From a virus, in IMG/VR virus record IMGVR_UViG_3300009320_000053, positions 1 through 39,650 of that record: 39,650 nt of DNA. One strand, given 5' to 3'. A model generated the notes under the pieces. The model was not told the DNA's origin. It ran no database searches and saw only the letters and a program-made list of their open reading frames with translations. Each line of letters begins with the position of its first letter. Positions within the stretch are counted from its first letter, which is position 1. Shown one piece after another: positions 2,772 through 26,923 of the stretch. Both the position numbers and the translations under genes were made by a program.

Positions 2772-4254
2772 AAACCTCCTGAACAATATCTCCTATTGCC
2801 TGGGCAATCGGTCTTGGTGTTGGATTATTCATATATTCAGCAAGCCCCTCTGCTATAAATTCTGCTCTATTCTTTTTTGCATACTTAGATAATTCTGATT
2901 CAATCAATTTGCTAGATTCACGGCGTAGTTGTATTATTTTGTCATTAGTTGATAATCCTAATAACTCATCCAAGGCATGCGCTGTCTCGTGATCAAAAAG
3001 AGATTTAATTGTATCACATCCAACTGGATGATAGCCTGTTTTTACATCATTCGCTAAGTGTTTTAACATTTTCGCAGACTTATACTTACTGTTTACCAAG
3101 AGACCAGTATATTCTTTCGCGTGCATATAAGATGCAGCATAAGAATTTGCAGGTGCTTTGCCAACTATTTTCCGCACTCTTTTCTTCGCGAGTTTTAATA
3201 TGTCTGCGTCTGTGTACCAATCAGGAGCTACCCTTTTTATATCTTTAATTTCTAATGGTAAATAATAATCCATTAATTCTTTATTCCTTGCTTGGATAGT
3301 TCCAGTGAAAGAAAAACCACTCTTAACTTTCGGATATCGCTCAAATGCTCCTGTCAATCCTCTATTCCATTCATTCGCGATTTTTAAATCCGTGCCTTTG
3401 TAATTAGCTTTATCAATACCAAGTACATTTGTGGCATATTCATTAGCACCAGTTATTGATTTTGCATTCACAAATACATCTTGATTTAGTAAGAAACCTC
3501 TCCCCTCCTTCATCATTCTCGTCAATAACGCACATCTGCAACCAGGAAATCTCAACGGTCTCATATCGCCACTTGGGAAAGCATCATTTAGCGGAATCCA
3601 GCCTGCATCTTCATTTTCCATACAGCCATCACTAACCCTATTATCTCTTGAGGTCAGCCAGCTCTTTTCCATCGGTAAACCAGCACTTTGCAGTGATTGT
3701 GATTGTATCATGCTGGCTTCTTCGTAAGCGTTGCCTGTTTCAGTAACAGCAATCAACTCCGCTCTTGATCTAATATGCTTCTGTGGTTGCCCTACTGCAA
3801 ATTCATTAAATCGATTCTTTATTTCTCTGGCTGTCTTTGCATAGCTCCATCCTTCATCAGTAGATTTAGTAATGATCGTGTTTAGATAATCTTTTGTGGT
3901 TATATCTATTCCTGCAACTTCTACTGCTCCATAATTTTCTAACCATTGAACAGCCATTGGATTCTTCAACGTGAACGCTAATGCTCTAGTTAATTCTGTG
4001 GGTGGTTTTAATCCTGCTAATATCATTGATTGAATAACCGCATCATCTACATCATCAGCCATTGCCGAAATTGTCATAAAACTCACGTATTCCCAATATT
4101 TCGTCCAATCATCAATGTCCGCTTCGCTGAATTCCGTCTTTAATCGTGCAAACATAGTAAGGAACATTCTGCCCTGTTTCCTGAAATGACGAGCAAATTG
4201 CCGTTGCAGTTTACTCTTTACAGGAGATAATATTTTCTCTCTATTGATTGGCAT
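2749..4254 (-). CDS. MuF-type head morphogenesis protein fused to a zincin-like domain
   Basis: This 501-aa minor head protein follows the portal, as Mu gpF-like proteins do. The MuF core is at about 160-245: SRAELIAVTETGNAYEEA, then DNRVSDGC, then FPGCRCALLTR. After about 250 comes a separate domain ending in FDHETAHALDELLG (HExxH with His422, Glu423, His426) and RAEFIAEGLAEYM near 463-474, which could supply the third metal ligand. Fusions of MuF to toxin-like or metallopeptidase domains are known in phages and prophages. Here the tail may act on capsid proteins or travel into the host cell. The MuF call is strong; the protease activity is inferred. Confidence 0.8.
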   Translation of the reverse strand: MPINREKILSPVKSKLQRQFARHFRKQGRMFLTMFARLKTEFSEADIDDWTKYWEYVSFMTISAMADDVDDAVIQSMILAGLKPPTELTRALAFTLKNPMAVQWLENYGAVEVAGIDITTKDYLNTIITKSTDEGWSYAKTAREIKNRFNEFAVGQPQKHIRSRAELIAVTETGNAYEEASMIQSQSLQSAGLPMEKSWLTSRDNRVSDGCMENEDAGWIPLNDAFPSGDMRPLRFPGCRCALLTRMMKEGRGFLLNQDVFVNAKSITGANEYATNVLGIDKANYKGTDLKIANEWNRGLTGAFERYPKVKSGFSFTGTIQARNKELMDYYLPLEIKDIKRVAPDWYTDADILKLAKKRVRKIVGKAPANSYAASYMHAKEYTGLLVNSKYKSAKMLKHLANDVKTGYHPVGCDTIKSLFDHETAHALDELLGLSTNDKIIQLRRESSKLIESELSKYAKKNRAEFIAEGLAEYMNNPTPRPIAQAIGDIVQEVYDDKYSQ

Positions 4255-6822: not shown

Positions 6823-8115
6823 TCACACTGGACTTATATTGACCGGATCATAATATTCAATTATTGTATCTTGTTCTTGATCCATTGATAATTCAGTCAT
6901 CGCCCACACTTTAGCGTCAAGTCTGTTTGGTGATTTATCTCCTGGAATCCACAAACACAATTCATCTTCTAATGCTTCAAAGTTCCCAACGTGATGATCG
7001 CGTCCGTTTTCTGCAATCGCTGAAATAGGTTCTGCTCTTGTTGCTTTTCCGCGTGATGCCCAAACTAATTTAACCGGAACATTACCTACTGTACGGTCTT
7101 TTTTCCTCGCATTGATAACTGCTTGATTGATGACGCTCAATACCATTTCACCACCATTATTCTTTTCAGCTACTATACAATCAGCCATAAATCTATGATA
7201 AGCGGTTATAGCGGCTTGCGCCCATGTTTCAGGACTTCCCTGCAAACTATCATCCGCTAAAGTGAAATAATCCTCTCCAATTTTTCCGACTGTGATTATT
7301 CCGGCTTCATCCCCATCAGTAGTAGTAGAAGGATCAACACCGACAACTATACGAGATAAACTTTCTGGTGCTTTTGTCAACCTGCTTAGTTCTATTAATC
7401 CGCGTTTCCATAATGCACCTGGAGCTTCATCTATGTCCTCAGCCATAATTTCCATACGATAAGCCATCGAGGTCATATCTGATGTTATTTCTTTCAATGC
7501 CTCTTTGCTCAAATGTGGATTGTCATGACTTGTAAAATTAAAGGTTGCATATCTTGAATTGCCAGCCTTAATTAATTCTAAATAACGTTTATACATTTTA
7601 GCAGCATGTTGTGGGTCCTTCGCTTTGCTTGCACTTCTAGAATGTAGCGAAGGAGGAGTATAAATAAATGTAGCATTTCCATTAGTGTCAAGCATCATTG
7701 GGGCGCCAACTAATCCCCATGTATCTTCGTTCATTAATTGCCATTCGTCTAAGTCAAGCTCATCTGCATAATCGCCACGCAATGAATCAGCATTCCAGGC
7801 TGTCTTTCCCTTTAGTCTTTGTTCTGTGCCTTTTAACTCAATGATATGTTCAGTTTCATTCTTATAATAAACGCCCTCTCTAATAGGTTCAATCAATGCT
7901 CTTGTTACCACTGCCCACCATCTGTTTAATTGATCTGCTGTTGGAGTAGCATATAAAACTCTTTTGCCGTTTAGAAAGCTATTAACATCTTTTATTGCAA
8001 CGCCAAGTGTCTTTCCTGATCTTCTACCAGCTCTAATAATCTTGCGCTTTGCAGGACTATTGATAAATAGCTTCTGTGAATCATGTGGTCTCGGAAGAGT
8101 TACGTTTAGTTTCAT
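6823..8115 (-). CDS. terL: Terminase large subunit (packaging ATPase/nuclease)
   Basis: This 430-aa motor protein is predicted to drive DNA into the prohead and cut concatemers. The Walker A motif AGRRSGKT is at 29-36 and an acidic Walker B region (ELDLDEWQ) at 119-126. The C-terminal RNase H-like nuclease shows VVGVDPSTTTDGDEAG, CIVAEKNNGG and DAKVWAMTEL, giving the expected metal-binding acids. The start overlaps TerS by 35 bases. At 430 aa it is slightly short but complete. The packaging mode (cos or pac) cannot be told from the sequence. Confidence 0.92.
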   Translation of the reverse strand: MKLNVTLPRPHDSQKLFINSPAKRKIIRAGRRSGKTLGVAIKDVNSFLNGKRVLYATPTADQLNRWWAVVTRALIEPIREGVYYKNETEHIIELKGTEQRLKGKTAWNADSLRGDYADELDLDEWQLMNEDTWGLVGAPMMLDTNGNATFIYTPPSLHSRSASKAKDPQHAAKMYKRYLELIKAGNSRYATFNFTSHDNPHLSKEALKEITSDMTSMAYRMEIMAEDIDEAPGALWKRGLIELSRLTKAPESLSRIVVGVDPSTTTDGDEAGIITVGKIGEDYFTLADDSLQGSPETWAQAAITAYHRFMADCIVAEKNNGGEMVLSVINQAVINARKKDRTVGNVPVKLVWASRGKATRAEPISAIAENGRDHHVGNFEALEDELCLWIPGDKSPNRLDAKVWAMTELSMDQEQDTIIEYYDPVNISPV

Positions 8116-10489: not shown

Positions 10490-10518
10490 ATTATTGCACT
10501 AATTCGTGCAATTGTCAA
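10490..10518 (-). promoter_or_regulatory. Promoter with operator-like inverted repeat in the spacer
   Basis: TTGACA at 10518-10513 and AATAAT at 10495-10490 are spaced by exactly 17 bases, and TGC precedes the -10. The spacer holds TTGCAC, 6 bases, GTGCAA, a perfect inverted repeat suited to a repressor. It drives the structured RNA at 10407-10484 and overlaps the stop of the lipoprotein gene. Confidence 0.65.
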
Positions 10519-11093
10519 TATTCAATATATAAATTAAAAAGACTTTCGTAATAATAACTTGCTTCTTGCATGTATCCATGCGCTCGATCTCGATGCTCAA
10601 ACCCGCTCAGTATTAGATCCATATCTTTATTTTCTACCCCCAGCCTCGCTTGCCTTTGAAATTGATAATACTCTTGATCTGATTTTTCAAACAATCTATT
10701 TAAAATCAATAATGACATTGGGGGATCTTCAACCGCGATATTGGAGCAATACATTTCAATATCATCCATCAACCATAACCATGGTTTCACAAAATTGGAA
10801 TTACCAAACAACCCTGGATCCTGCTCTAAACTCGTCAACATAGACAATGCTACATCGCTATCAAGATACTCGCCTGTTTCTATTCCAATACATGAAACTA
10901 TTTGTTTTTCGTAATGTTTCACAACCTCCTGGAATCTTTTGCCCTCCACAGTTAAGGTTGGCGTTGGCTCCAGGGTAGGTTGATTCAAATAAATAGACGT
11001 TGGTGTACTATCCAGCAAATAATCTGGATCTGGAGGTACACAACTTGATAGCAGGAGCATGACCATAAAGACCATGCTCCATTTCGTTTTCAT
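10515..11093 (-). CDS. Lipoprotein with Thr-Pro linker, 192 aa
   Basis: The N-terminus is a lipoprotein signal: Lys-containing start, hydrophobic core, and lipobox LLSSC with Cys18. A PTLEPTPTLT linker, typical of surface proteins that span a wall, follows. The remaining about 145 residues are helical and acidic (HYEKQIVSCIGIETG, QYYQFQRQARLG) without a recognised family. Its ATG overlaps the upstream lipoprotein stop as TAATG, so the pair is co-translated. It probably faces the outside of the membrane. Superinfection exclusion or host-surface alteration is conceivable but unproven. Confidence 0.7.
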   Translation of the reverse strand: MKTKWSMVFMVMLLLSSCVPPDPDYLLDSTPTSIYLNQPTLEPTPTLTVEGKRFQEVVKHYEKQIVSCIGIETGEYLDSDVALSMLTSLEQDPGLFGNSNFVKPWLWLMDDIEMYCSNIAVEDPPMSLLILNRLFEKSDQEYYQFQRQARLGVENKDMDLILSGFEHRDRAHGYMQEASYYYESLFNLYIEY

Positions 11094-11899
11094 TATTCTG
11101 ATACCACAAATCTCACGCGTTCAAGGAACTGTTCTCTTAGACTCAGTGTTGTTTCATCTTCAACTGGACCGATCAGCGAAACTCTGACATCATCTATCTC
11201 TGTGTAATGCCAACCGTTTCTTGTTATATCGTCTGACCACTTAGCGTAATTAATCTCTGCGCGTGTGCTTTCTTTGGTAATAGCATCAAGGTGTTCCGTT
11301 TGCCATAGAAATGCCATACCCCAGTCAAGTCCAACTTCAAAACTGATCTTGATAACAATGCCCTCATGGACTATTTGCCCATACGTGTTTGTGATCGGTG
11401 TGCAATCTGCGACCAGGAATGGGCCTTGCCATCCTCCACCCAAATCTATCCACACTGATTCTCCGTTTGCTCCGCATACAGGCAATTCGACTGCTCCTAA
11501 ATATCCTTGCAGGTACTTATCTGCTCCAAGCGTGTTTGGTTCATATACCGCACCTAATTTACCTGAGAATATTGGAGGCGGTTGCATATTGTACGATTCG
11601 GGAGTAATCATCCCTGGGATCCAAGCCATCGGCCTCATATCACCCCAACGATAGCCATCATAGGGGCCATCGTCAATTATGATCGGGTTTCCGTTTGAAT
11701 CAAGATCATACAACTCAACATCCTGGCTGCCGTATAGTGCGAAATCCGACTCCTCCACTATCGGTACCACTGGTTCATCCACAACAGGAATCTCGACCAT
11801 TTCTGGAAGCGCTGCTGTTGGCTCTGGATTCATCGTTGATTCGAGGTTACACCCCATTAACATCAAAGCTATTAGTATTACATACATTATCTTTTTCAT
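11093..11899 (-). CDS. Lipoprotein with double-psi-barrel-like domain, paralogue of the L,D-transpeptidase N-domain
   Basis: I place the start at ATG 11899 (AAGGAG 4 bases upstream). The longer frame to 12010 has no binding site and hides a signal peptide. The 268-aa product has lipobox LMGC (about residue 17), a PEPTAALPE linker and an acidic segment. A domain with WIPGM, GAVELPVCGANGESVWI, WQGPFLVADC and VVKISFEVGLDWGM-like order follows. The same order (WIPGM, CADHGGLVWL, WEGPFKVVDC, VEVGFETAVRWGM) is in the transpeptidase at 12277-13599. The family may be a barwin/RlpA-like double-psi barrel (inference). Confidence 0.7.
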   Translation of the reverse strand: MKKIMYVILIALMLMGCNLESTMNPEPTAALPEMVEIPVVDEPVVPIVEESDFALYGSQDVELYDLDSNGNPIIIDDGPYDGYRWGDMRPMAWIPGMITPESYNMQPPPIFSGKLGAVYEPNTLGADKYLQGYLGAVELPVCGANGESVWIDLGGGWQGPFLVADCTPITNTYGQIVHEGIVIKISFEVGLDWGMAFLWQTEHLDAITKESTRAEINYAKWSDDITRNGWHYTEIDDVRVSLIGPVEDETTLSLREQFLERVRFVVSE

Positions 11900-12012
11900 C
11901 TTGCTCCTTCCATTTCTACAATCATTGTTATTACAATCCAAACGATCAACCCTGCAGATATGATCGCCATTACTATTTCCAAGAATAAAATGACCAGTGC
12001 TATTATCCACAT
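11896..12012 (-). CDS. Small single-span membrane peptide, 38 aa
   Basis: The start ATG at 12012 is preceded by AGGAGTGTTACT. The stop overlaps the next lipoprotein start (ATGA). Nearly the whole sequence is one hydrophobic helix (MWIIALVILFLEIVMAIISA) with a short charged end. It resembles holin/toxin-like or exclusion micro-proteins, but its function is unknown. Confidence 0.6.
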   Translation of the reverse strand: MWIIALVILFLEIVMAIISAGLIVWIVITMIVEMEGAR

Positions 12013-12098
12013 AGTAACACTCCTATAAAGACACAAAGCATCATTAGTCCTGCGCAAATTATCATCATCATCCAACCTGCTATCGCTCGAGGATACAT
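12003..12098 (-). CDS. Small membrane peptide, 31 aa
   Basis: The ATG at 12098 overlaps the stop of the upstream gene as TAATG. The product is a hydrophobic segment rich in Met (GWMMMIICAGLMMLCVFIGV) and overlaps the next membrane peptide by 10 bases. The chain of coupled starts from 12226 to 11093 supports its reality. No family recognised. Confidence 0.5.
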   Translation of the reverse strand: MYPRAIAGWMMMIICAGLMMLCVFIGVLLCG

Positions 12099-12226
12099 TA
12101 TTCAAATATTGGTAGTCTCATTTGCCGTAAATTACCAATCAATTTTCTTTTGCGTTCCACCCAACGCTTTCTCTGAGCTTCGCTCATTTTTATTCTGGAT
12201 TCTTTAGAAAACCGTTTACCATACAT
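12098..12226 (-). CDS. Stand-alone NUMOD3-like DNA-binding peptide, 42 aa
   Basis: The sequence KRFSKESRIKMSEAQRKRW matches the NUMOD3 motif, usually a DNA-binding repeat attached to HNH or GIY-YIG homing nucleases. Here it stands alone with a basic tail (VERKRKL). It may be the leftover C-terminus of a decayed homing endonuclease, or a small DNA-binding protein. Its stop couples to the next frame by TAATG. Confidence 0.5.
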   Translation of the reverse strand: MYGKRFSKESRIKMSEAQRKRWVERKRKLIGNLRQMRLPIFE

Positions 12227-12276
12227 AGGATTATTTTTTCCGCTGACCCTCAATCACTCTATCATAAACCCCGCAA

Positions 12277-13599
12277 TTATTGATGGATATAGACATGCGT
12301 TCCTTTCTCTGCCCTTTCATAAATCCATTCAGAATCCTCAACCGTCAAATTAATACAGCCACGAGACATTTTTTCCCCAAACGAGTTGTGCCAAAAAGTT
12401 CCGTGCAAGGCATACTCTCCGTGAAAAAACATACTAAACGGTACGTGAGGGATAGACCCATCTACGCCTGCCATTGTGTAATCTAAATACATAGCATATA
12501 TTTCATAGCTCCCAGGTGGTGTAGGTGTATGAAATAGGCCAGAAGAAATAACAAACTTATTAATGACTTCTGAGCCACTATAAGCATAAAGTGCCTGTTC
12601 GCTCAAATCAACATCTATCCAAAACTCATCTGGCTCAACCTCGAATGACTTGATGACACTCGTTGGTGTATGCACCACCACTTTTCCTGCAATAGATTCA
12701 ATATCAATAGGAATATCCGCCATTGTAGTTAGATCGAAGCCGATAAATTCACCTGAAGGCGGTATTCTCCAAGTCGGCAATCCTTCTTTTTCAACCGGAG
12801 GTCGATACAGCATCCTGGGAATAGTATTGTAATATTTTTCTGCCTCCTGGTTGGTATCAAATTCATCAAACGTTACTCGATCCAGGAACCATTCGCTGTA
12901 ATCTACTATTTCCTCATCGCCTGATAACTGATCGGGGGGGATCTTTGAAACGATCACATCATGTACTATCCCTTGAGTCCAATACTGAACCCACTCACCA
13001 TTGATTAATTCGGGTTTGGTTGACATTCCCCACCTTACAGCGGTTTCAAACCCTACCTCCACTGCCTCATCACGATGAACTGTTGTATTATAAATATCAT
13101 TTCTCCTGGCACAATCCACCACTTTAAATGGGCCTTCCCACTCGTACCGTGGTCTTTTCAGCCATACCAGCCCCCCATGATCGGCACAAGTCATTAATGC
13201 CACGCCATCCACTACATTATCTAGCGATAAACCGTTATACTCTGCGGTTCCTTCCATCACTCCTGGGCCATACGGCCAAACATCACCCATAAACAGATCG
13301 GGTGCCACCATGAATTGACTTGCGAATGACGGCATCCCTGGGATCCATTTATTATTCAATCCATAATGCCACCCATTGTATTCGATCCCATCATCAACGG
13401 CCTCTGGTACTACATGCCCTTGATAACCTTGATCCGGGATCTCAAATTCAATGCCTGCGTAATCGTATGTTGGTGCCTCTTGAATCTCTACTACCTTTTC
13501 CAATGGCTCTATCGGTTGAGATTCGACCATCTTTTCTGCTCCACCTAATAGAACACCCAACACAGACACAACCATTAAGAATCGTGCATTTAAATTCAT
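12277..13599 (-). CDS. Secreted L,D-transpeptidase (YkuD) with N-terminal double-psi-barrel-like domain
   Basis: This 440-aa protein begins with a signal peptide or anchor (about residues 5-20). A region at about 75-235 shares WIPGM, GPF-VVDC and FETAVRWGM with the lipoprotein at 11093-11899. The C-terminal YkuD domain is at about 315-440, with HGTFWHNSFGEKMSRGCINL (His399, Cys415), the intact catalytic signature. Such enzymes form 3-3 cross-links or attach proteins to peptidoglycan. A phage copy outside the lysis cassette suggests remodelling of the host wall during infection. Its own promoter is at 13636-13662. AAAGGAG precedes the ATG. Confidence 0.85.
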   Translation of the reverse strand: MNLNARFLMVVSVLGVLLGGAEKMVESQPIEPLEKVVEIQEAPTYDYAGIEFEIPDQGYQGHVVPEAVDDGIEYNGWHYGLNNKWIPGMPSFASQFMVAPDLFMGDVWPYGPGVMEGTAEYNGLSLDNVVDGVALMTCADHGGLVWLKRPRYEWEGPFKVVDCARRNDIYNTTVHRDEAVEVGFETAVRWGMSTKPELINGEWVQYWTQGIVHDVIVSKIPPDQLSGDEEIVDYSEWFLDRVTFDEFDTNQEAEKYYNTIPRMLYRPPVEKEGLPTWRIPPSGEFIGFDLTTMADIPIDIESIAGKVVVHTPTSVIKSFEVEPDEFWIDVDLSEQALYAYSGSEVINKFVISSGLFHTPTPPGSYEIYAMYLDYTMAGVDGSIPHVPFSMFFHGEYALHGTFWHNSFGEKMSRGCINLTVEDSEWIYERAEKGTHVYIHQ

Positions 13600-13635
13600 G
13601 GGGTAACTCCTTTGACGACTGCCGTAGGTGAACCC

Positions 13636-13662
13636 ATTATACTATATCTTACAACTTGTCAA
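13636..13662 (-). promoter_or_regulatory. Promoter of the L,D-transpeptidase gene
   Basis: TTGACA (13662-13657) and TATAAT (13641-13636) are both perfect, but the spacer is only 15 bases. That usually weakens a promoter or makes it activator-dependent. It overlaps the end of the upstream 55-aa membrane protein gene. Confidence 0.55.
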
Positions 13663-13826
13663 CCCCATAATTGACTACCTACGATAATCCCCAGGGTGAA
13701 GAAAATAACAAAAACAATCACATAAAATATGATCGTTCTTTTGACTTCCTGCCTGTATTGGAATTTATAAAGATGATCGGCCAATTCCTTTTTTTCAGTT
13801 TCAGATATTGGTTCGTGGTACATCAT
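13659..13826 (-). CDS. Small membrane protein, 55 aa
   Basis: The start is ATG 13826 or the adjacent ATG 13823, behind AAGGAGG. About 30 hydrophilic residues are followed by one strong membrane helix (IIFYVIVFVIFFTLGIIV) and a short tail. It resembles XhlA-like or single-span accessory proteins. It lies between the anchored Pro-rich protein and the transpeptidase, so an envelope role is likely. Confidence 0.65.
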   Translation of the reverse strand: MMYHEPISETEKKELADHLYKFQYRQEVKRTIIFYVIVFVIFFTLGIIVGSQLWG

Positions 13827-13888
13827 TCCTCCTTCAATTCTTGATAATTACTTCGCTATACAAAACTTCCTTATAATGTTCTGGTGGG

Positions 13889-13976
13889 TGTGTATAAGTG
13901 GATAGAGAAAGATACTCTTAAGGAAACGAAATGGGGGACTGTATATACAGTTAGTATATATCCATTTCGTTTCCTT
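13889..13976. repeat. 15-bp inverted repeat around a 14-bp palindrome, with DnaA-box-like site nearby
   Basis: The arms at 13920-13934 and 13962-13976 are perfect 15-bp inverted repeats. Between them sits ACTGTATATACAGT (13938-13951), itself a perfect palindrome, and AT-rich DNA. On the plus strand the distal arm ends in TTTTT, so it could be a plus-strand terminator; the minus-strand side is not U-rich. At 13889-13897 the minus strand reads TTATACACA, which fits the DnaA-box consensus TTWTNCACA. The stretch 13827-13998 holds no gene. Confidence 0.6.
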
Positions 13977-13998
13977 TTTACCTAAGAGTTAGAGTTTT

Positions 13999-14769
13999 TT
14001 AGTTAAAAAGCATTGAGATCCACATGACCAAAAGATAAAGGGGGTTGTCCCCTCCTGTGTTGATGTTAGGAGTTGGTTTTGGGGTCGGTTTTGGAGCTGG
14101 AGGAGTTGGTTTTGGGGTCGGTTTTGGAGCTGGAGGATTTGGATCTACGACCTCGACTTCACACTCAGGAATCCAAAAAAGTAAGCTCTGAATTTGGGCC
14201 ATATTGTTTGGACTTCCCCACCAGGAAGAAACTATTTCATTTCCCCCGATCCAATCGATTGTAGGATCTGGAATATCTCCAGAGGTGTCTCTGACGAGTC
14301 TAATTACTTCATCATAGATACCAGAGCTTGCGGCTGTTTCCATGGCATCATCAATTTGAGTGCCGCGGAGGTATGCATCTTCTTCTGTATAACCACCGGT
14401 ACCATACTCAGCAGCAATTGCATTAAGTATCAATGCGTCGGTTACTAACCCGAGACTAAAATCTGTGGGTTGTTCAATGTAGATGACATCATTCTGTTCT
14501 GCACAGACTGCAGTAGTATCCTCGAAAATTTCTCCTTCAACCACAAGATCTCCAGTCATAGCCGCGTTCCCCGATCCAGGAATAGCTGCATCCACTGTGT
14601 AAGTAGCATCTGCTAACTCTGCTACCTCAGTAACAGGCTCGTCTGGAAGAACCTCACAGTTCACGTCAGGATCTTCCCCTTCACCGTCGCAGGCGAATAC
14701 ATTTCCTGTTGCGGTTAAGAGAATCAGTAGCGCAATAAGTAGACTAAAAATCTTTTTCTTGTGTTTCAT
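13999..14769 (-). CDS. Secreted Pro/Lys/Thr-rich protein with C-terminal membrane anchor
   Basis: This 256-aa protein starts with a clear signal peptide (Lys-rich start, LLIALLILLTATG core, cleavage before the Cys-containing FACDGEG). A Cys-bearing globular part spans about residues 30-205. Then comes a PAPKPTPKPTP linker, encoded by a 33-bp tandem repeat, and a C-terminal hydrophobic segment (NPLYLLVMWISMLF). The topology is that of a wall-spanning surface protein held in the membrane. Its ATG is 2 bases after the stop of the sortase-like gene. Function unknown; the neighbourhood suggests a surface factor. Confidence 0.7.
   Translation of the reverse strand: MKHKKKIFSLLIALLILLTATGNVFACDGEGEDPDVNCEVLPDEPVTEVAELADATYTVDAAIPGSGNAAMTGDLVVEGEIFEDTTAVCAEQNDVIYIEQPTDFSLGLVTDALILNAIAAEYGTGGYTEEDAYLRGTQIDDAMETAASSGIYDEVIRLVRDTSGDIPDPTIDWIGGNEIVSSWWGSPNNMAQIQSLLFWIPECEVEVVDPNPPAPKPTPKPTPPAPKPTPKPTPNINTGGDNPLYLLVMWISMLFN
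14070..14135 (-). repeat. 33-bp tandem repeat encoding the Pro-Lys-Thr linker
   Basis: Copies at 14070-14102 and 14103-14135 are identical. Each encodes 11 residues of the PAPKPTPKPTP type. Exact identity suggests recent expansion. Length changes here would alter how far the globular part stands off the membrane. Confidence 0.85.
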
Positions 14770-14771
14770 TT

Positions 14772-15284
14772 TTACCTCTTTTCAATCTTGTATATAATTC
14801 GGAGAAATTTGTTTGCACAAGTGTTAATGTATAGAACACCTGGCTCACCTTGAAATTCTTCACTCACTTTAACCTGAGTGACAAACACTAGGCTATCTCC
14901 GATTAATATGTCATTTAAGTAAATATCTGAATTAATTACTAATTCGTCATTTTTACCCTTAAGGGCAAAACTAAACCATTCTCGAAAGAGAATATTGCCC
15001 AGACCTTCCTCTTTCGTAGCACTATGGACATAGAAAGTCCATGATGGTCCGAAAAAACCAATCCTTTCATGAGCTGTTCCGTCATTTCCATTCCCAAGGA
15101 ATTTTTCAAGTTCATTTATATCATTGAACTCTCTCAAATCCTCGAAAACTAGTGTTTTATCACTATCTTCCATGACTACTCTTAGATTGAATTGATTTAA
15201 TTCCTGTGCGTAAACAGTCTGAGGAGATATAAATACTCCTAGCAGAGCTACTAGGAACAAGAATTTAAGAATGATTCTTTTCAA
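14772..15284 (-). CDS. Secreted protein with sortase-like features (tentative)
   Basis: A 170-aa protein with a signal peptide (RIILKFLFLVALLGVFIS, cleavage after VYA). It begins with TTG at 15284, behind AAAGGAGG. The mature part has FYVHSAT with His87, LIGDSLVFV, and LYINTCANKFLR with Cys156 and Arg162. This order (His, GD-strand, Thr-Cys, Arg) resembles a small sortase. The His-Cys spacing of 69 is near that of sortase A, but the Arg is unusually close to the Cys. If real, it could anchor phage- or host-encoded surface proteins. An alternative is an unrelated secreted beta-rich protein. Confidence 0.45.
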   Translation of the reverse strand: MKRIILKFLFLVALLGVFISPQTVYAQELNQFNLRVVMEDSDKTLVFEDLREFNDINELEKFLGNGNDGTAHERIGFFGPSWTFYVHSATKEEGLGNILFREWFSFALKGKNDELVINSDIYLNDILIGDSLVFVTQVKVSEEFQGEPGVLYINTCANKFLRIIYKIEKR

Positions 15285-22322: not shown

Positions 22323-23294
22323 TTAAGAATCTAACAAATCTAATTGTCCTAATTCTTTCAATCTCGTTGTCAATATCTTTGAAGCTTCGGCAGGAACATA
22401 TTCATCTGGACTATATGCACCTCCTGAATCTTTGACTGGTTTGATCCATTCCAACAAAGCGATTATGTAATTGTCTGGAATATCCTTTGATGAACCATGC
22501 CCAGTTAGATATTGACAGACTTCTTTTCTTTTCATTTCGGTATCGCCAACGGCAAAACATGCTTCAATCATCCCAACCATCAGGCCAATCTGTGCCTTAG
22601 TCGCTTTTTTGCCTGTAAATTTGCTTGCCAAGGCGTCTATTTTGGCTTTTACTACTTCTGGGTTATATGGGCGTTCATTCTGCGCTTCTGGTTGATCTTC
22701 AACTATTTCAGCTTCGACCACTTCATTACTTGCCTGACCCATTTCACCAGGAGTATAAAGTCCTGATAGTTCCTGCGGAAATGCTTTTCTCAATGCAAGT
22801 GATTCTGCACACTTCGCCAACATTAACGCTGGCATTTTCCGCCACATTCCCATCAGTACAAACTCGCCGTCCTTTTTGTAGGTTTGTTTATATTGTTCCC
22901 ATGTAGCAACTGCCCATAAGGGTTCTGAAAAGTCTTTTCTTAATACTGCAACTTTTGCAGCTGCAGGATATTCAGCGGATAGCCAGACTTCTTTCCAATC
23001 GCCATTCAATCCGCACCAATAAGGCCCCAACTGTCCGGCATACTTATCAGTTCTTTCAGCTACTAATCGGAATCCGTCAATGCTGACTTGCACTCCCATG
23101 ACTTGCCGATTTTCCCTGCTATCCCACCGCTTGATAGCATAAATCTGTCTCGAGAATGGATCAAGTCCAGTGCGCTGCGCCTGCATGATGAATAACTTTA
23201 ATTCGTCATCGCTTGCACCTTTACAGATCGTTCTTTTAATAAGATCCTTCTGCTGTTTTGAATATTCATTAACTGTTGCTAATTCTTTTGTCAT
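22323..23294 (-). CDS. bet: Recombination protein Bet (RecT-family single-strand annealase)
   Basis: This protein of about 323 aa is predicted to anneal complementary single strands in phage recombination. The core matches Bet: [57 protein letters not shown], and [36 protein letters not shown] (about 150-190). The C-terminal third is an acidic linker plus a helical domain. No partner exonuclease is visible nearby. The start is ATG 23294, within AAGGAGGTAAGTG; a GTG three bases before is possible. Confidence 0.88.
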
Positions 23295-23490
23295 CACTTA
23301 CCTCCTTTTTGTTAAAATCAATTTTCGTCAGCCCTACCTCATCCTTATATTTGTTTAGGGCAATTCGGATCACTTTTGCTCTTGGTTTTTTGTTAATCAC
23401 CTTCCACTTATTCAGGAACTCAATCTCTTTTAATCTTAGATTGACCGTTAGCTTTCCTGCAAACTCTTTCTTTGGACCAGGTCTTGTCAT
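23269..23490 (-). CDS. Ribbon-helix-helix protein, 73 aa
   Basis: [46 protein letters not shown] gives the strand-helix-helix pattern of small DNA-binding repressors, with a basic N-terminal arm. AAGGAGGCAGT precedes the ATG. The last 9 codons overlap the Bet start and carry its ribosome binding site. It could regulate the recombination operon. Confidence 0.7.
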
Positions 23491-23499
23491 ACTGCCTCC

Positions 23500-23724
23500 T
23501 TATAAGTCTATTCTCAAATCACAATCAGCGCAATATAAATATTCGCCACCTGATTGCCCGTAATCTTGATTAAAAAACTCGCGAAAATCATCATCGTAAA
23601 TTAAGTCTTTATTACATTTTGAGCATTTGTTCGTTTCCACAGCAAGCTCGATTTCAAGTTCTTCCAATTCTAACTCTAAATCCTCTATTGCCCCATCCCA
23701 TTCTTCCTTGAGCAGTACGTTCAT
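23500..23724 (-). CDS. Acidic helix plus zinc-ribbon protein, 74 aa
   Basis: The N-terminal half is a Glu/Leu coiled coil (DLELELEELEIELAVE); the C-terminal half has CSKCNKD and YCADCDLR, two Cys pairs of a zinc ribbon. The ATG overlaps the upstream stop (ATGA). Unknown function; early-gene location. Confidence 0.65.
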   Translation of the reverse strand: MNVLLKEEWDGAIEDLELELEELEIELAVETNKCSKCNKDLIYDDDFREFFNQDYGQSGGEYLYCADCDLRIDL

Positions 23725-24014
23725 CGCTTCCTCTCGATCTGATCCTCTGTTGATTCTGGGATTCCGAACCCTGGGCGTGAAACTGTTATCTTCGTATATG
23801 GATCATTCGGTGCTGAGAATACAGCTAAATAATCGCTATCAATAATCACACGCGGATAGAAATTTCTCTTTTCTGCCAAAGTCTGAGCAAATACAAGCGC
23901 ATGATATTCATTCTCAAATAGTGCTAATTGTTTGATAATTTTCTCTTGTGCTGTGTCTACCTGAAATCGTACTTCAAAATGATATGCTTTTCCTGAATAT
24001 TTGATCTTTGTCAT
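23721..24014 (-). CDS. Hypothetical protein, 97 aa
   Basis: The first about 55 residues (KAYHFEVRFQVDTAQEKIIK, ALVFAQTLAEKRNFYPRV) suggest a small alpha/beta fold; the C-terminus is basic. An AAGGAGGAAAC site and an extended -10 promoter (24030-24038) precede it. First gene of the Bet operon. No family recognised. Confidence 0.65.
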   Translation of the reverse strand: MTKIKYSGKAYHFEVRFQVDTAQEKIIKQLALFENEYHALVFAQTLAEKRNFYPRVIIDSDYLAVFSAPNDPYTKITVSRPGFGIPESTEDQIERKR

Positions 24015-24029
24015 GTTTCCTCCTTGATT

Positions 24030-24038
24030 ATTGTATCA
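24030..24038 (-). promoter_or_regulatory. Extended -10 promoter of the Bet operon
   Basis: TGA TACAAT on the minus strand, 16 bases before the 97-aa gene start. A TTAACA lies 15 bases upstream of the hexamer. The very short leader carries AAGGAGG. Confidence 0.55.
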
Positions 24039-24072
24039 TATATTATTGGTTGTTAATCTTAAAAAGTCTGAC

Positions 24073-24327
24073 CTATTTGACAACCCCGACTTCTTCCCAG
24101 TTCTTGATCAGTCCAATGTCGAAAGCGCGTGTTGCGTAAGTCAACGCGATCTCTTTCTTGTTTTCATCAAGAAGATTATGGATCGCTTCGTGAGCGTCGT
24201 CGCAAACTTCGAACGGTGCAACTTCGTGCCAAGAATCCTTTTCCGCTTCAACGAAATAAATATCGGTGGGGTTTTCTTCTGGATTCGGGGATGGTACTTT
24301 TCTAACTCTATGCTCTTTCATTTTCAT
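24073..24327 (-). CDS. Hypothetical acidic protein, 84 aa
   Basis: This is the first gene after the divergent promoter region. Two AAGGAG copies (AAAAAGGAGAAAAAGGAGAA) precede the ATG. It has DIYFVEAEKDSWHEVAPFEVCDDAHEAIHNLLDENKKEIAL, acidic overall. Early phage genes of this type often inhibit host proteins, but nothing specific can be said. No family recognised. Confidence 0.65.
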   Translation of the reverse strand: MKMKEHRVRKVPSPNPEENPTDIYFVEAEKDSWHEVAPFEVCDDAHEAIHNLLDENKKEIALTYATRAFDIGLIKNWEEVGVVK

Positions 24328-24355
24328 TTCTCCTTTTTCTCCTTTTTCTACTTAT

Positions 24356-24383
24356 ATCTTATCATATAATATAGGATAGTCAA
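24356..24383 (-). promoter_or_regulatory. Early promoter, minus strand
   Basis: TTGACT (24383-24378), a 16-base spacer and TAAGAT (24361-24356) with TGA as extended -10. It reads leftward into the 84-aa gene and the early region. About 80 bases away a promoter on the other strand drives the plus-strand RNA. AT-rich DNA with an inverted CTTAAT/ATTAAG lies between them. Confidence 0.65.
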
Positions 24384-24438
24384 GAGGCCAATCTTAACAA
24401 ACCACTTAATTTAAGATTAAGGAATTTTTCACTTTTAA

Positions 24439-24447
24439 TGCTATAAT
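24439..24447 (+). promoter_or_regulatory. Extended -10 promoter, plus strand
   Basis: TGC TATAAT, with no clear -35. This is the only convincing plus-strand promoter. It starts the small RNA at about 24454. GAACATG at 24448-24454 pairs with CATGTTC at 24478-24484, possibly as a DNA-level operator, because most of the first arm lies before the expected start. Confidence 0.6.
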
Positions 24448-24453
24448 GAACAT

Positions 24454-24565
24454 GATCATCGGAGGTATCAGCCTCCGCATGTTCCCTCCTTTGGGTGCGG
24501 TTCATTCATTAGCCGCACCCATCCGTTTAAATAGAAAAGGCCTCCTACCAGGGAGGCTTTTTTTT
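24454..24565 (+). ncRNA. Putative small RNA with anti-Shine-Dalgarno motif, about 112 nt
   Basis: From an extended -10 promoter the plus strand makes hairpin 1 (24460-24477, CGGAGG with CCTCCG). An unpaired linker follows, then hairpin 2 (24493-24520, GGGTGCGG with CCGCACCC), a short A-rich linker, and hairpin 3 (GCCTCC with GGAGGC) followed by eight T. The linker at 24485-24492 is CCUCCUUU, identical to the 3'-end core of 16S rRNA and complementary to AAAGGAGG sites. It may base-pair with ribosome binding sites of phage or host messages. The plus-strand frame through it crosses the terminator and is probably not translated. Confidence 0.65.
24539..24565. terminator. Bidirectional intrinsic terminator
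   Basis: GCCTCC and GGAGGC (24540-24557) are followed on the plus strand by TTTTTTTT. On the minus strand the same stem is followed by TTTTCTATTT. It therefore ends both the plus-strand small RNA and the leftward late/lysis transcript, whose last gene stops at 24581. Confidence 0.8.
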
Positions 24566-24580
24566 GTCTTTTACGTAATG

Positions 24581-24904
24581 TTACTTTTGAAATCTCTCAA
24601 AGAGACCGTGTGCGAAATTGGATCCTTTAGATAAAAGAAATCCAGTGATAACATACGCAACAGGCGCCCACGCGAATGGAATTTCTAACACTTCAAAAAT
24701 ATTTACCTTCGCGCCAAAAGCTAAAACTATCCCGACCACCATTGAAACAACAATATCTATTTCAACAGGTACTTCACGAGCATCGAGAATTTCTTCCAGT
24801 TTTGCATAAAGGGGCTTTAAGATTTCAACGAGAACACTAACTAGAGTTGCTAATGCTGAAAATGCCGCAACTCCTCCTGCTACCTCTACAACTGCACCTA
24901 GCAT
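24581..24904 (-). CDS. Holin-like membrane protein, 107 aa
   Basis: The start is ATG 24904, behind AAAGGAGG; the longer frame to 24928 would begin before that site. Three hydrophobic stretches are seen: about 5-30, 55-75 (VVSMVVGIVLAFGAK) and 83-97 (PFAWAPVAYVITGFLL). A charged tail follows. Size, topology and position next to the lysozyme and XhlA-like genes fit a holin. It is the last gene before the bidirectional terminator. Confidence 0.6.
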   Translation of the reverse strand: MLGAVVEVAGGVAAFSALATLVSVLVEILKPLYAKLEEILDAREVPVEIDIVVSMVVGIVLAFGAKVNIFEVLEIPFAWAPVAYVITGFLLSKGSNFAHGLFERFQK

Positions 24905-24920
24905 TTTTACCTCCTTTCGA

Positions 24921-25775
24921 CTAATCAATAGCCAAGGTTATTTCGTGCTTCAGTTCCTCATTATACCAATAAAATCTTAACCATGCTGCACCGCGCGGTC
25001 TTGGGGATTTTCCGCTTTCTACATGAAAGCCACCATAACCATCTCCATAGTCATCTGAGTATGTTCCCAGATTTAAGTATCTACAATTATACTGCTCAAT
25101 ATTTCCTTTAGCGTTCATGCGAATCTTTTTTATTGGAACATCCCACATGTCGTGTGAATGTCCCATAATAACAAAGTTAGCACTCTCAACATACATACCC
25201 ATCCGATTTGTTCTAATCACCCCCCTAGTTACTTCTGCTCTTCCTGAGCCAGCTCCATGAAAGTAATATAATCGTCTGCATATTCTTTGCTTACCACGTT
25301 TGAATTGAAATCTAACCCAGCCACCGTATCCGCCAAGTTGAATTTTCGCTCCCGGAACCTCATTCAATTTTCCAGTCAGCAAGCTCATCACATCAAGCGA
25401 ATTATGTTTCATAACTTTTTGATCATGATTGCCTCTTCCTAATAAGACAAATCGATCTGAATAAGGCTTTAATTGTTTATAAGCATCTGCAACAATCTCT
25501 CCAAGATAATTGTCTAGAAGATATTCCGGGCGGATGTTACTAAACTGTCTGCGCGGATCATATCTCCCTTCCATCATTGAGAAGAAGTCGCCAGTATCAA
25601 GTATGTGAGCATCCCTTTCTTTCGCCTGCTCTAAATGCTGGAACATTAATTTTCTATCACAATTAGGTGAATCCCAATGACGATCTGAGCTGAGTAAAAA
25701 CCACTTCTGCCAGCCCGCTTTAACGTCATCCATTTGCAAGGTAAGAACGTTCCTTGAGTTATGCGTAATCTCCAT
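24921..25775 (-). CDS. Calcineurin-like metallophosphoesterase, 284 aa
   Basis: The metal-binding blocks are in order: SSDRHWD (D-x-H, about 29), DTGDFF (GD, about 60), GRGNHD (about 114) and GHSHD (about 205). This is a complete two-metal phosphoesterase core. The substrate is unknown: nucleotides, nucleic acid or phosphodiester wall polymers. It is encoded between the XhlA-like and holin-like genes, which is an unusual spot and might mean a role in lysis or late DNA metabolism. Confidence 0.8.
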   Translation of the reverse strand: MEITHNSRNVLTLQMDDVKAGWQKWFLLSSDRHWDSPNCDRKLMFQHLEQAKERDAHILDTGDFFSMMEGRYDPRRQFSNIRPEYLLDNYLGEIVADAYKQLKPYSDRFVLLGRGNHDQKVMKHNSLDVMSLLTGKLNEVPGAKIQLGGYGGWVRFQFKRGKQRICRRLYYFHGAGSGRAEVTRGVIRTNRMGMYVESANFVIMGHSHDMWDVPIKKIRMNAKGNIEQYNCRYLNLGTYSDDYGDGYGGFHVESGKSPRPRGAAWLRFYWYNEELKHEITLAID

Positions 25776-25799
25776 GGTTTCCTTTCAGTTGTTAAGGTT

Positions 25800-26024
25800 C
25801 TATCTTATTACCAAAGCTATTAGTGATCCCAATACCGCCACAATAATCATGCCGACAAATCCGAAGGTTATCTGCTTCACTGGGCTAAACTCAACCTTAG
25901 TAACATACTCATTTTTAAGGGTGTCTTTAATTTCATCCATGCCGTCTTTAATATAGCCTATATCTTTGACTATCAACGCCACCGAAGTTGCTACCGTCAT
26001 TTTCTTTACTGGTTTATTGTCCAT
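25800..26024 (-). CDS. XhlA-like lysis accessory protein, 74 aa
   Basis: The N-terminal half is amphipathic helix (VALIVKDIGYIKDGMDEIKDTLK) and the C-terminus is one membrane helix (TFGFVGMIIVAVLGSLIALV). This is the layout of hemolysin XhlA-type proteins that assist holin/lysin release in phages of Gram-positive hosts. It sits directly after the lysozyme gene. Confidence 0.7.
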   Translation of the reverse strand: MDNKPVKKMTVATSVALIVKDIGYIKDGMDEIKDTLKNEYVTKVEFSPVKQITFGFVGMIIVAVLGSLIALVIR

Positions 26025-26050
26025 ATAATACTCCTTATTGCGCCCTCCAG

Positions 26051-26923
26051 CTATTGTTCCTTTATGTATTTCTCATCCGCTGAAACATAAACGATTCTTT
26101 CTGGTACTTTTATTGGTTGCCAGGTGATTCCGCTTGCAGCTTCATAAACCTTATCACCCGCCTTATCGTATAGCTCTCCTTTCCTAACAATAACAGAATG
26201 TGTCCTTGATTCAAACACTGGCTCGCTCCTTCCCCATAACTGATCAACTAAAATTAACACATCCTCTGTTGGTGTAGCCGGTGGTTGAGAACCTCCTTCC
26301 CCAAGATAATTTCTGAATGCCTGTTCATCACCGTTAAATCTATTCAGATCCATATAAGTAGAATCTCCGCCGTAAGCCCTGCAATCAGCTTTTGATGTAT
26401 ATTGCCAGAAAGTCCACGGCACTCCATCATTTGCCCAAACAGACGGCATCCTGGGGGCTGGTGCATTTGTATAGTTGGCCACCCACAACTCATAATTCAA
26501 AGCCCATAATTGGTTGTTGTGATTCGGTCTACCGTTCCAATATCCCTGAGAAGTGTAAATAATAGGTCTTATGCCTGAAAGCCTTTCCACCTCATTCAAG
26601 AATCTTTGTAGTTCATCGAATGTACAATTACCATGATAAGTAGTTGATTCAAAATCTGCGACTGGTGCGATTTCTCCAGGATCATTTTTCCAGCGATTGA
26701 CAAAACGCCTGGCCAATTCCTCCTGGTTCATCCCATGCAAAGGCCAACCATAAGCACCCCTGGCTATCCCAACTCTTTTAGATTCTCGCCAGTTTCGATC
26801 AAATTCCTTATCCTCATTGTAGCCAAACATTGCTCTTTCAAATGCAAATTTAACTCCCTGAGATTTAGCTTTATCCCAGTTGAATTTGCGATTGTGATGA
26901 CTGACATCTATACCATTATCCAT
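26051..26923 (-). CDS. GH25 lysozyme (endolysin), 290 aa
   Basis: This enzyme is predicted to cut the MurNAc-GlcNAc bond of peptidoglycan. GIDVSHHNRKFNWDKAK (start of the barrel, with Asp), GVKFAFERAMFG, a VADFES strand carrying catalytic Asp/Glu (about 88-93), IIYTSQGYW and WTFWQYTS are GH25 landmarks. After about residue 205 comes a PPATPTED linker and a roughly 75-residue C-terminal domain, probably wall-binding. There is no signal peptide, so release depends on a holin. Confidence 0.9.
   Translation of the reverse strand: MDNGIDVSHHNRKFNWDKAKSQGVKFAFERAMFGYNEDKEFDRNWRESKRVGIARGAYGWPLHGMNQEELARRFVNRWKNDPGEIAPVADFESTTYHGNCTFDELQRFLNEVERLSGIRPIIYTSQGYWNGRPNHNNQLWALNYELWVANYTNAPAPRMPSVWANDGVPWTFWQYTSKADCRAYGGDSTYMDLNRFNGDEQAFRNYLGEGGSQPPATPTEDVLILVDQLWGRSEPVFESRTHSVIVRKGELYDKAGDKVYEAASGITWQPIKVPERIVYVSADEKYIKEQ

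Follow-up and report, generated by a model that had tools for sequence, protein, structure and literature searches.

Does the single rightward unit at 24439-24565 of a leftward-running phage genome make a regulatory RNA, and on which messages would such an RNA act? The window analysed here is the whole IMG/VR virus record IMGVR_UViG_3300009320_000053 (39,650 bases). Its gene order is head, tail, GH25 lysozyme, phosphoesterase, a holin-like gene (24581-24904), the junction carrying the putative small RNA (sRNA), and an early block containing RecT (PF03837), a replication initiator and a DNA methylase. An earlier sequence-only reading held that all proteins run leftward, and gene calls showed this to be true for all convincing protein genes. 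The sRNA region, 24454-24565 (+), falls between the genes at 24073-24327 and 24581-24904 without overlapping any gene; it would therefore act in trans through its linker.

Structure of the RNA locus

The sRNA region folds on the + strand with an energy of -53.9 kcal/mol and a z-score of -8.8, which was equalled by 0 of 200 shuffles; the slightly longer interval 24448-24565 (+) gave a z-score of -9.4. In a sliding scan of 5,650 windows of 112 nt on both strands of the record, the locus ranked first for fold stability. The rightward unit with an extended -10 and three hairpins that had been proposed from the letters was borne out as sequence by the folds, the motif scan and the terminator scan (Table 1). 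The motif TGnTATAAT is found once on the + strand of the record and six times on the - strand. No good -35 was visible upstream when the sequence was read by eye, so the promoter call depends on the extended -10.

Table 1 Features at and around the RNA locus, with positions in the window.
Feature	Position	Strand	Basis and remarks
Putative promoter of the early leftward operon, divergent from the sRNA promoter	24356-24383	-	TTGACT-16-TAAGAT, TG before -10; promoter scan
24-codon ORF, AAAGGAGG four bases before ATG; judged not a gene	24406-24480	-	Sequence read; L003 comparison
Candidate regulator site TTAAGATTAAGGAATT	24411-24426	+	Upstream of the sRNA promoter, between the divergent promoters; once in the record
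Extended -10 promoter TGCTATAAT	24439-24447	+	Sole + strand TGnTATAAT; RNA start expected at ~24453-24455
Hairpin 1	24454-24484	+	MFE and centroid fold; L003 counterpart of 10 bp with other sequence
Open linker CCUCCUU, equal to the 16S rRNA anti-Shine-Dalgarno core	24485-24491	+	Unpaired probability 0.95-1.0; identical 7-nt linker in L003
Hairpin 2, UUCAUU at the loop	24492-24521	+	Fold; L003 counterpart of 9 bp, UUCAUU likewise in the loop
Terminator hairpin with U8, doubling as a weaker terminator of the leftward lysis operon	24533-24565	+	Terminator scan, both strands

The linker between hairpins 1 and 2 had been described as the open sequence CCUCCUUU, equal to the 16S rRNA core. Thermodynamic folding of 24454-24565, proposed earlier as a check, did not sequester the linker, and its openness was upheld; its length was not, since T24492 is mostly paired (unpaired probability 0.18) and the open segment is therefore 7 nt, CCUCCUU, rather than 8. 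The record contains 68 CCTCC sites on its two strands, 26 of them open in local folds, and the linker at 24485 is the only one of the 68 lying in an open segment with a hairpin on each side.

Conservation of the junction in a second phage

The sole relative found with the lysis-recT junction was IMGVR_UViG_3300035698_001800 (27.8 kb), referred to as L003. Its phosphoesterase (83% identity), GH25 lysozyme (82%), RecT (65%) and holin (57%) are similar to those of the window while its head genes are a different and unrelated set, so the two phages have a lysis-to-recT module in common. In the window, the corresponding interval 22323-26923 (GH25 lysozyme, phosphoesterase, holin-like gene and recT, at 57-83% identity in the two phages) is, judging from these comparisons, a mobile lysis-to-recT module.

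On the strand opposite the genes, the L003 junction carries TTAAGGTTAAGGAATT, a promoter-like site, a 10-bp hairpin, CCUCCUU and a 9-bp hairpin. The promoter-like site (TGATAAAAT; TTGAAA-16-TAAAAT with TG before the -10) occupies the place equivalent to that of the window promoter. The linker is base-for-base the same and is bounded by the hairpins at the same points; the L003 fold has a z-score of -6.8, with a linker unpaired probability of ~0.98-1. Because MAFFT misaligned the rewritten stems, the alignment-based pair count was dropped and the stems were matched pair by pair on the folds of the two phages. By hand count, both bases have changed in 5 of the 9 aligned pairs of hairpin 2. Paired stem changes around a conserved linker, proposed as a check in the sequence-only reading, were thus seen in this one relative. 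Because the linker is identical while the stems differ yet pair, the linker and the overall shape appear to matter and the stem sequence does not.

Further relatives with the junction were sought among viral contigs by holin, RecT, phosphoesterase and GH25, two alignments and two DNA patterns, and none beyond L003 was found; two GH25-matched viral contigs (L009 and L010) end before the junction. Among genome contigs, one distant phosphoesterase (L006) was recovered on a 4.7-kb contig with no junction sign in its ORFs, and blastn of the region against phages and plasmids returned nothing meaningful. Two candidate relatives were rejected: L002, a GC-rich unrelated phage whose RecT is related, and L015 (Rhodobacteraceae phage LS06-2018-MD07), where a distantly related phosphoesterase adjoins a repressor gene and only a terminator is present. 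Beside the L015 repressor, at 3900-3990 (minus), a tRNA-like sequence was noted by eye.

Putative divergent promoters and operator-like sites

The leftward promoter-like site listed in Table 1 has an L003 equivalent, TTGACA-16-TATAAT, and would serve as the early promoter. The candidate regulator site that precedes the sRNA promoter is likewise present in L003 (TTAAGGTTAAGGAATT) at the same place, 10 bp farther from the sRNA -10, and may be bound by a regulator. The interval between the divergent promoters (24384-24438) contains an inverted repeat, AATCTTAA...TTAAGATT, and the direct repeat TTAAG-A-TTAAG, the second of which recurs in L003, and looks like an operator. In L003 the first gene of the early block is Arc-like by a weak PHROG match, and by eye alone the window interval 23269-23490 seems to belong to this class; an Arc-like regulator of this kind could set both divergent promoters.

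Candidate targets

Strong Shine-Dalgarno (SD) sequences were defined as GGAGG at <=20 nt from the gene start. In the window these precede 7 of 19 replication/early-block genes and 2 of 34 late genes (p = 0.007), the early/late split having been examined after the fact and the second late gene being the holin, which was counted once its start was set at 24904. L003 shows the same trend, which is not significant (3/10 early versus 1/13 late; p = 0.28). Mean pairing energies of early and late genes did not differ significantly in the window or in L003. Among predicted linker pairings, recT ranked first in L003 and fourth in the window, and it is the only orthologous gene within the top pairing group of both phages. 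The window holin, a late gene, is also among the best-matching SDs. A seven-base anti-SD gives little specificity.

From the two sequences available (n = 2), the small RNA is well supported and probably acts as a genuine regulator, stopping the translation of certain messages; its transcription, its pairing in the cell, its targets and its timing are predictions. The phage would produce a regulatory RNA of ~112 nt from a dedicated promoter lying back to back with that of the early operon. The 7-nt anti-SD linker CCUCCUU, kept open by two stable hairpins, would pair with strong SD sites (AGGAGG), preventing ribosome binding. The likeliest targets would be phage early messages such as recT, with early proteins being lowered or their level set. 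Repression of GGAGG-type, mainly early, phage messages is favoured because of the GGAGG excess in the early block, the predicted pairing with recT, and the back-to-back promoters with their shared motif; it is nevertheless put forward tentatively, at slightly less than even confidence. The wider proposal is more doubtful: that this phage family uses a stand-alone copy of the 16S anti-SD tail between hairpins as a general switch, turning off strong-SD early messages of the phage, and perhaps of the host, when the late programme starts. A phage RNA imitating this ribosomal tail would offer a simple, RNA-only route for moving translation from early genes to late ones, or for damping that of the host.

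The main rival to early-message repression is a broad effect, in which a real RNA with an SD-blocking linker acts on host messages or on translation generally as a competitor of the 30S subunit. The linker matches the universal anti-SD core, has no conserved flanking complementarity, and no single phage target stands out strongly in the pairing list, all of which would suit such a competitor. It would, however, need to be very abundant and would also affect the phage's own early messages, and the concentration of GGAGG SDs in the phage early block points the other way; this explanation is considered unlikely. Competition with 16S rRNA, which had been offered earlier as a separate possibility, amounts to SD blocking when the competition is for mRNA; binding of an anti-SD RNA to 16S rRNA itself is not expected.

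Termination and strand assignment

The strong terminator proposed for the rightward unit was retained for the window, where the hairpin at 24533-24564 with its T run was an independent match in the terminator scan with a higher score on the + strand and ends in U8. Its conservation is unsupported, since the third hairpin of L003 lacks a U-run on the sRNA strand. That hairpin, with its U-run confined to the gene strand, is the lysis-operon terminator; the sRNA of L003 might end instead at hairpin 2 and the UUUCAUUU after it. Another reading takes the hairpins as a bidirectional terminator and insulator between the lysis (late) operon and the early operon, in which the third hairpin does the work and no trans-acting RNA is made. 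In both phages the third hairpin does close the lysis operon, scoring as a terminator on either strand in the window and bearing its L003 U-run on the gene strand. This reading is quite unlikely, as it leaves the promoter, hairpins 1-2 and the identical open linker unexplained.

It is very unlikely that the linker merely complements the SD of the tiny leftward ORF at 24406-24480 (-), with the hairpins forming a leftward leader or attenuator. AAAGGAGG does stand four bases upstream of an ATG on the coding strand, and most CCTCCTT in the record is on the + strand, as SD complements would be. In L003, however, no start codon follows the equivalent GGAGG, and the two phages differ by one base in the spacing from AATGAA to AAGGAGG, which leaves no conserved reading frame through this stretch. 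The ORF is not conserved in L003, and coding potential of the sRNA complement was considered and rejected. Between the terminator and the ORF, the promoter scan picked up nothing resembling a leftward promoter. The fold of hairpins 1-2 is also stronger on the sRNA strand than on the gene strand in both phages (-35.1 versus -29.0 kcal/mol in the window; -30.6 versus -26.7 kcal/mol in L003), and G-U pairs in these hairpins total 4 for the sRNA strand against 1 for the gene strand.

Relation to known small RNAs

The structural hallmark of the anti-SD small RNA class, an open anti-SD within a structured small RNA, was found in the window and in L003. Streptococcal csRNAs are cia-dependent small RNAs that form stem-loops and leave a CCUCCU anti-SD motif unpaired (PMC4438229). 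Like the sRNA described here, they have their own promoter, stem-loops and an unpaired anti-SD, and the csRNA types share little sequence with each other, as do the sRNA stems of the window and L003 (PMC4438229). They differ in being chromosomal rather than phage-borne and in carrying CCUCCU in the first loop, with stem-loops ~40 nt apart, whereas the present motif is a linker between hairpins (PMC4438229). The csRNA promoter has the CiaR box TTAAG-N5-TTTAAG, where TTAAG-N-TTAAG is found instead at this locus (PMC4438229); no CiaR box of that form occurs in the record.

The alphaproteobacterial ar14/cuckoo RNAs (NfeR1) keep their anti-SD motif while their stems vary strongly (PMC10746234). Three hairpins, a conserved unpaired anti-SD and divergent stems are common to them and to the sRNA, but they are chromosomal and bear the motif CCUCCUCCC in unpaired parts of all three hairpins, in contrast to the one CCUCCUU linker seen here (PMC10746234). 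The ar14 model RF02344 scored 15.6 bits on the sRNA against a cut-off of 58.8. Caulobacter SisA-D also have a common anti-SD motif (PMC12559287). The sRNA would resemble csRNAs and ar14/cuckoo RNAs in action, repressing messages by SD pairing, without having their tested sequence features. In the literature searched, no phage-borne anti-SD small RNA was found, the known ones being from bacterial chromosomes.

Several reviewed phage small RNAs are antisense RNAs (PMC12197685). Lambda OOP is similarly a short, terminator-ended phage RNA, made against the direction of its neighbouring genes and close to a control region, but is a cis antisense RNA to cII, while the sRNA here overlaps no gene (PMC12197685). 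Against the families of Rfam 15, no match reached the curated cut-off for the window sRNA, the best being RNAI (32.8 bits against 47), and the L003 region gave no match. A replication primer or an RNA I/OOP-like origin element, whose linker pairs elsewhere or nowhere, is highly improbable: the inter-module position, the opposite direction and the sub-threshold RNAI match recall such elements, but that match, absent in L003, spans only hairpin 2 and the terminator, GC skew gives neither a switch at the locus nor an origin signal, and overlap with no known message argues against OOP-like cis antisense action.

Other features of the genome

The terminase large subunit gene (6823-8115) encodes a protein with 58% identity to that of Methanosarcina virus MetMV, yet the phage has a peptidoglycan-type lysozyme. 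Unusual phage cargo, a run of genes for secreted or lipoprotein-like products with an L,D-transpeptidase (YkuD, PF03734) among them, occupies 10515-15284.
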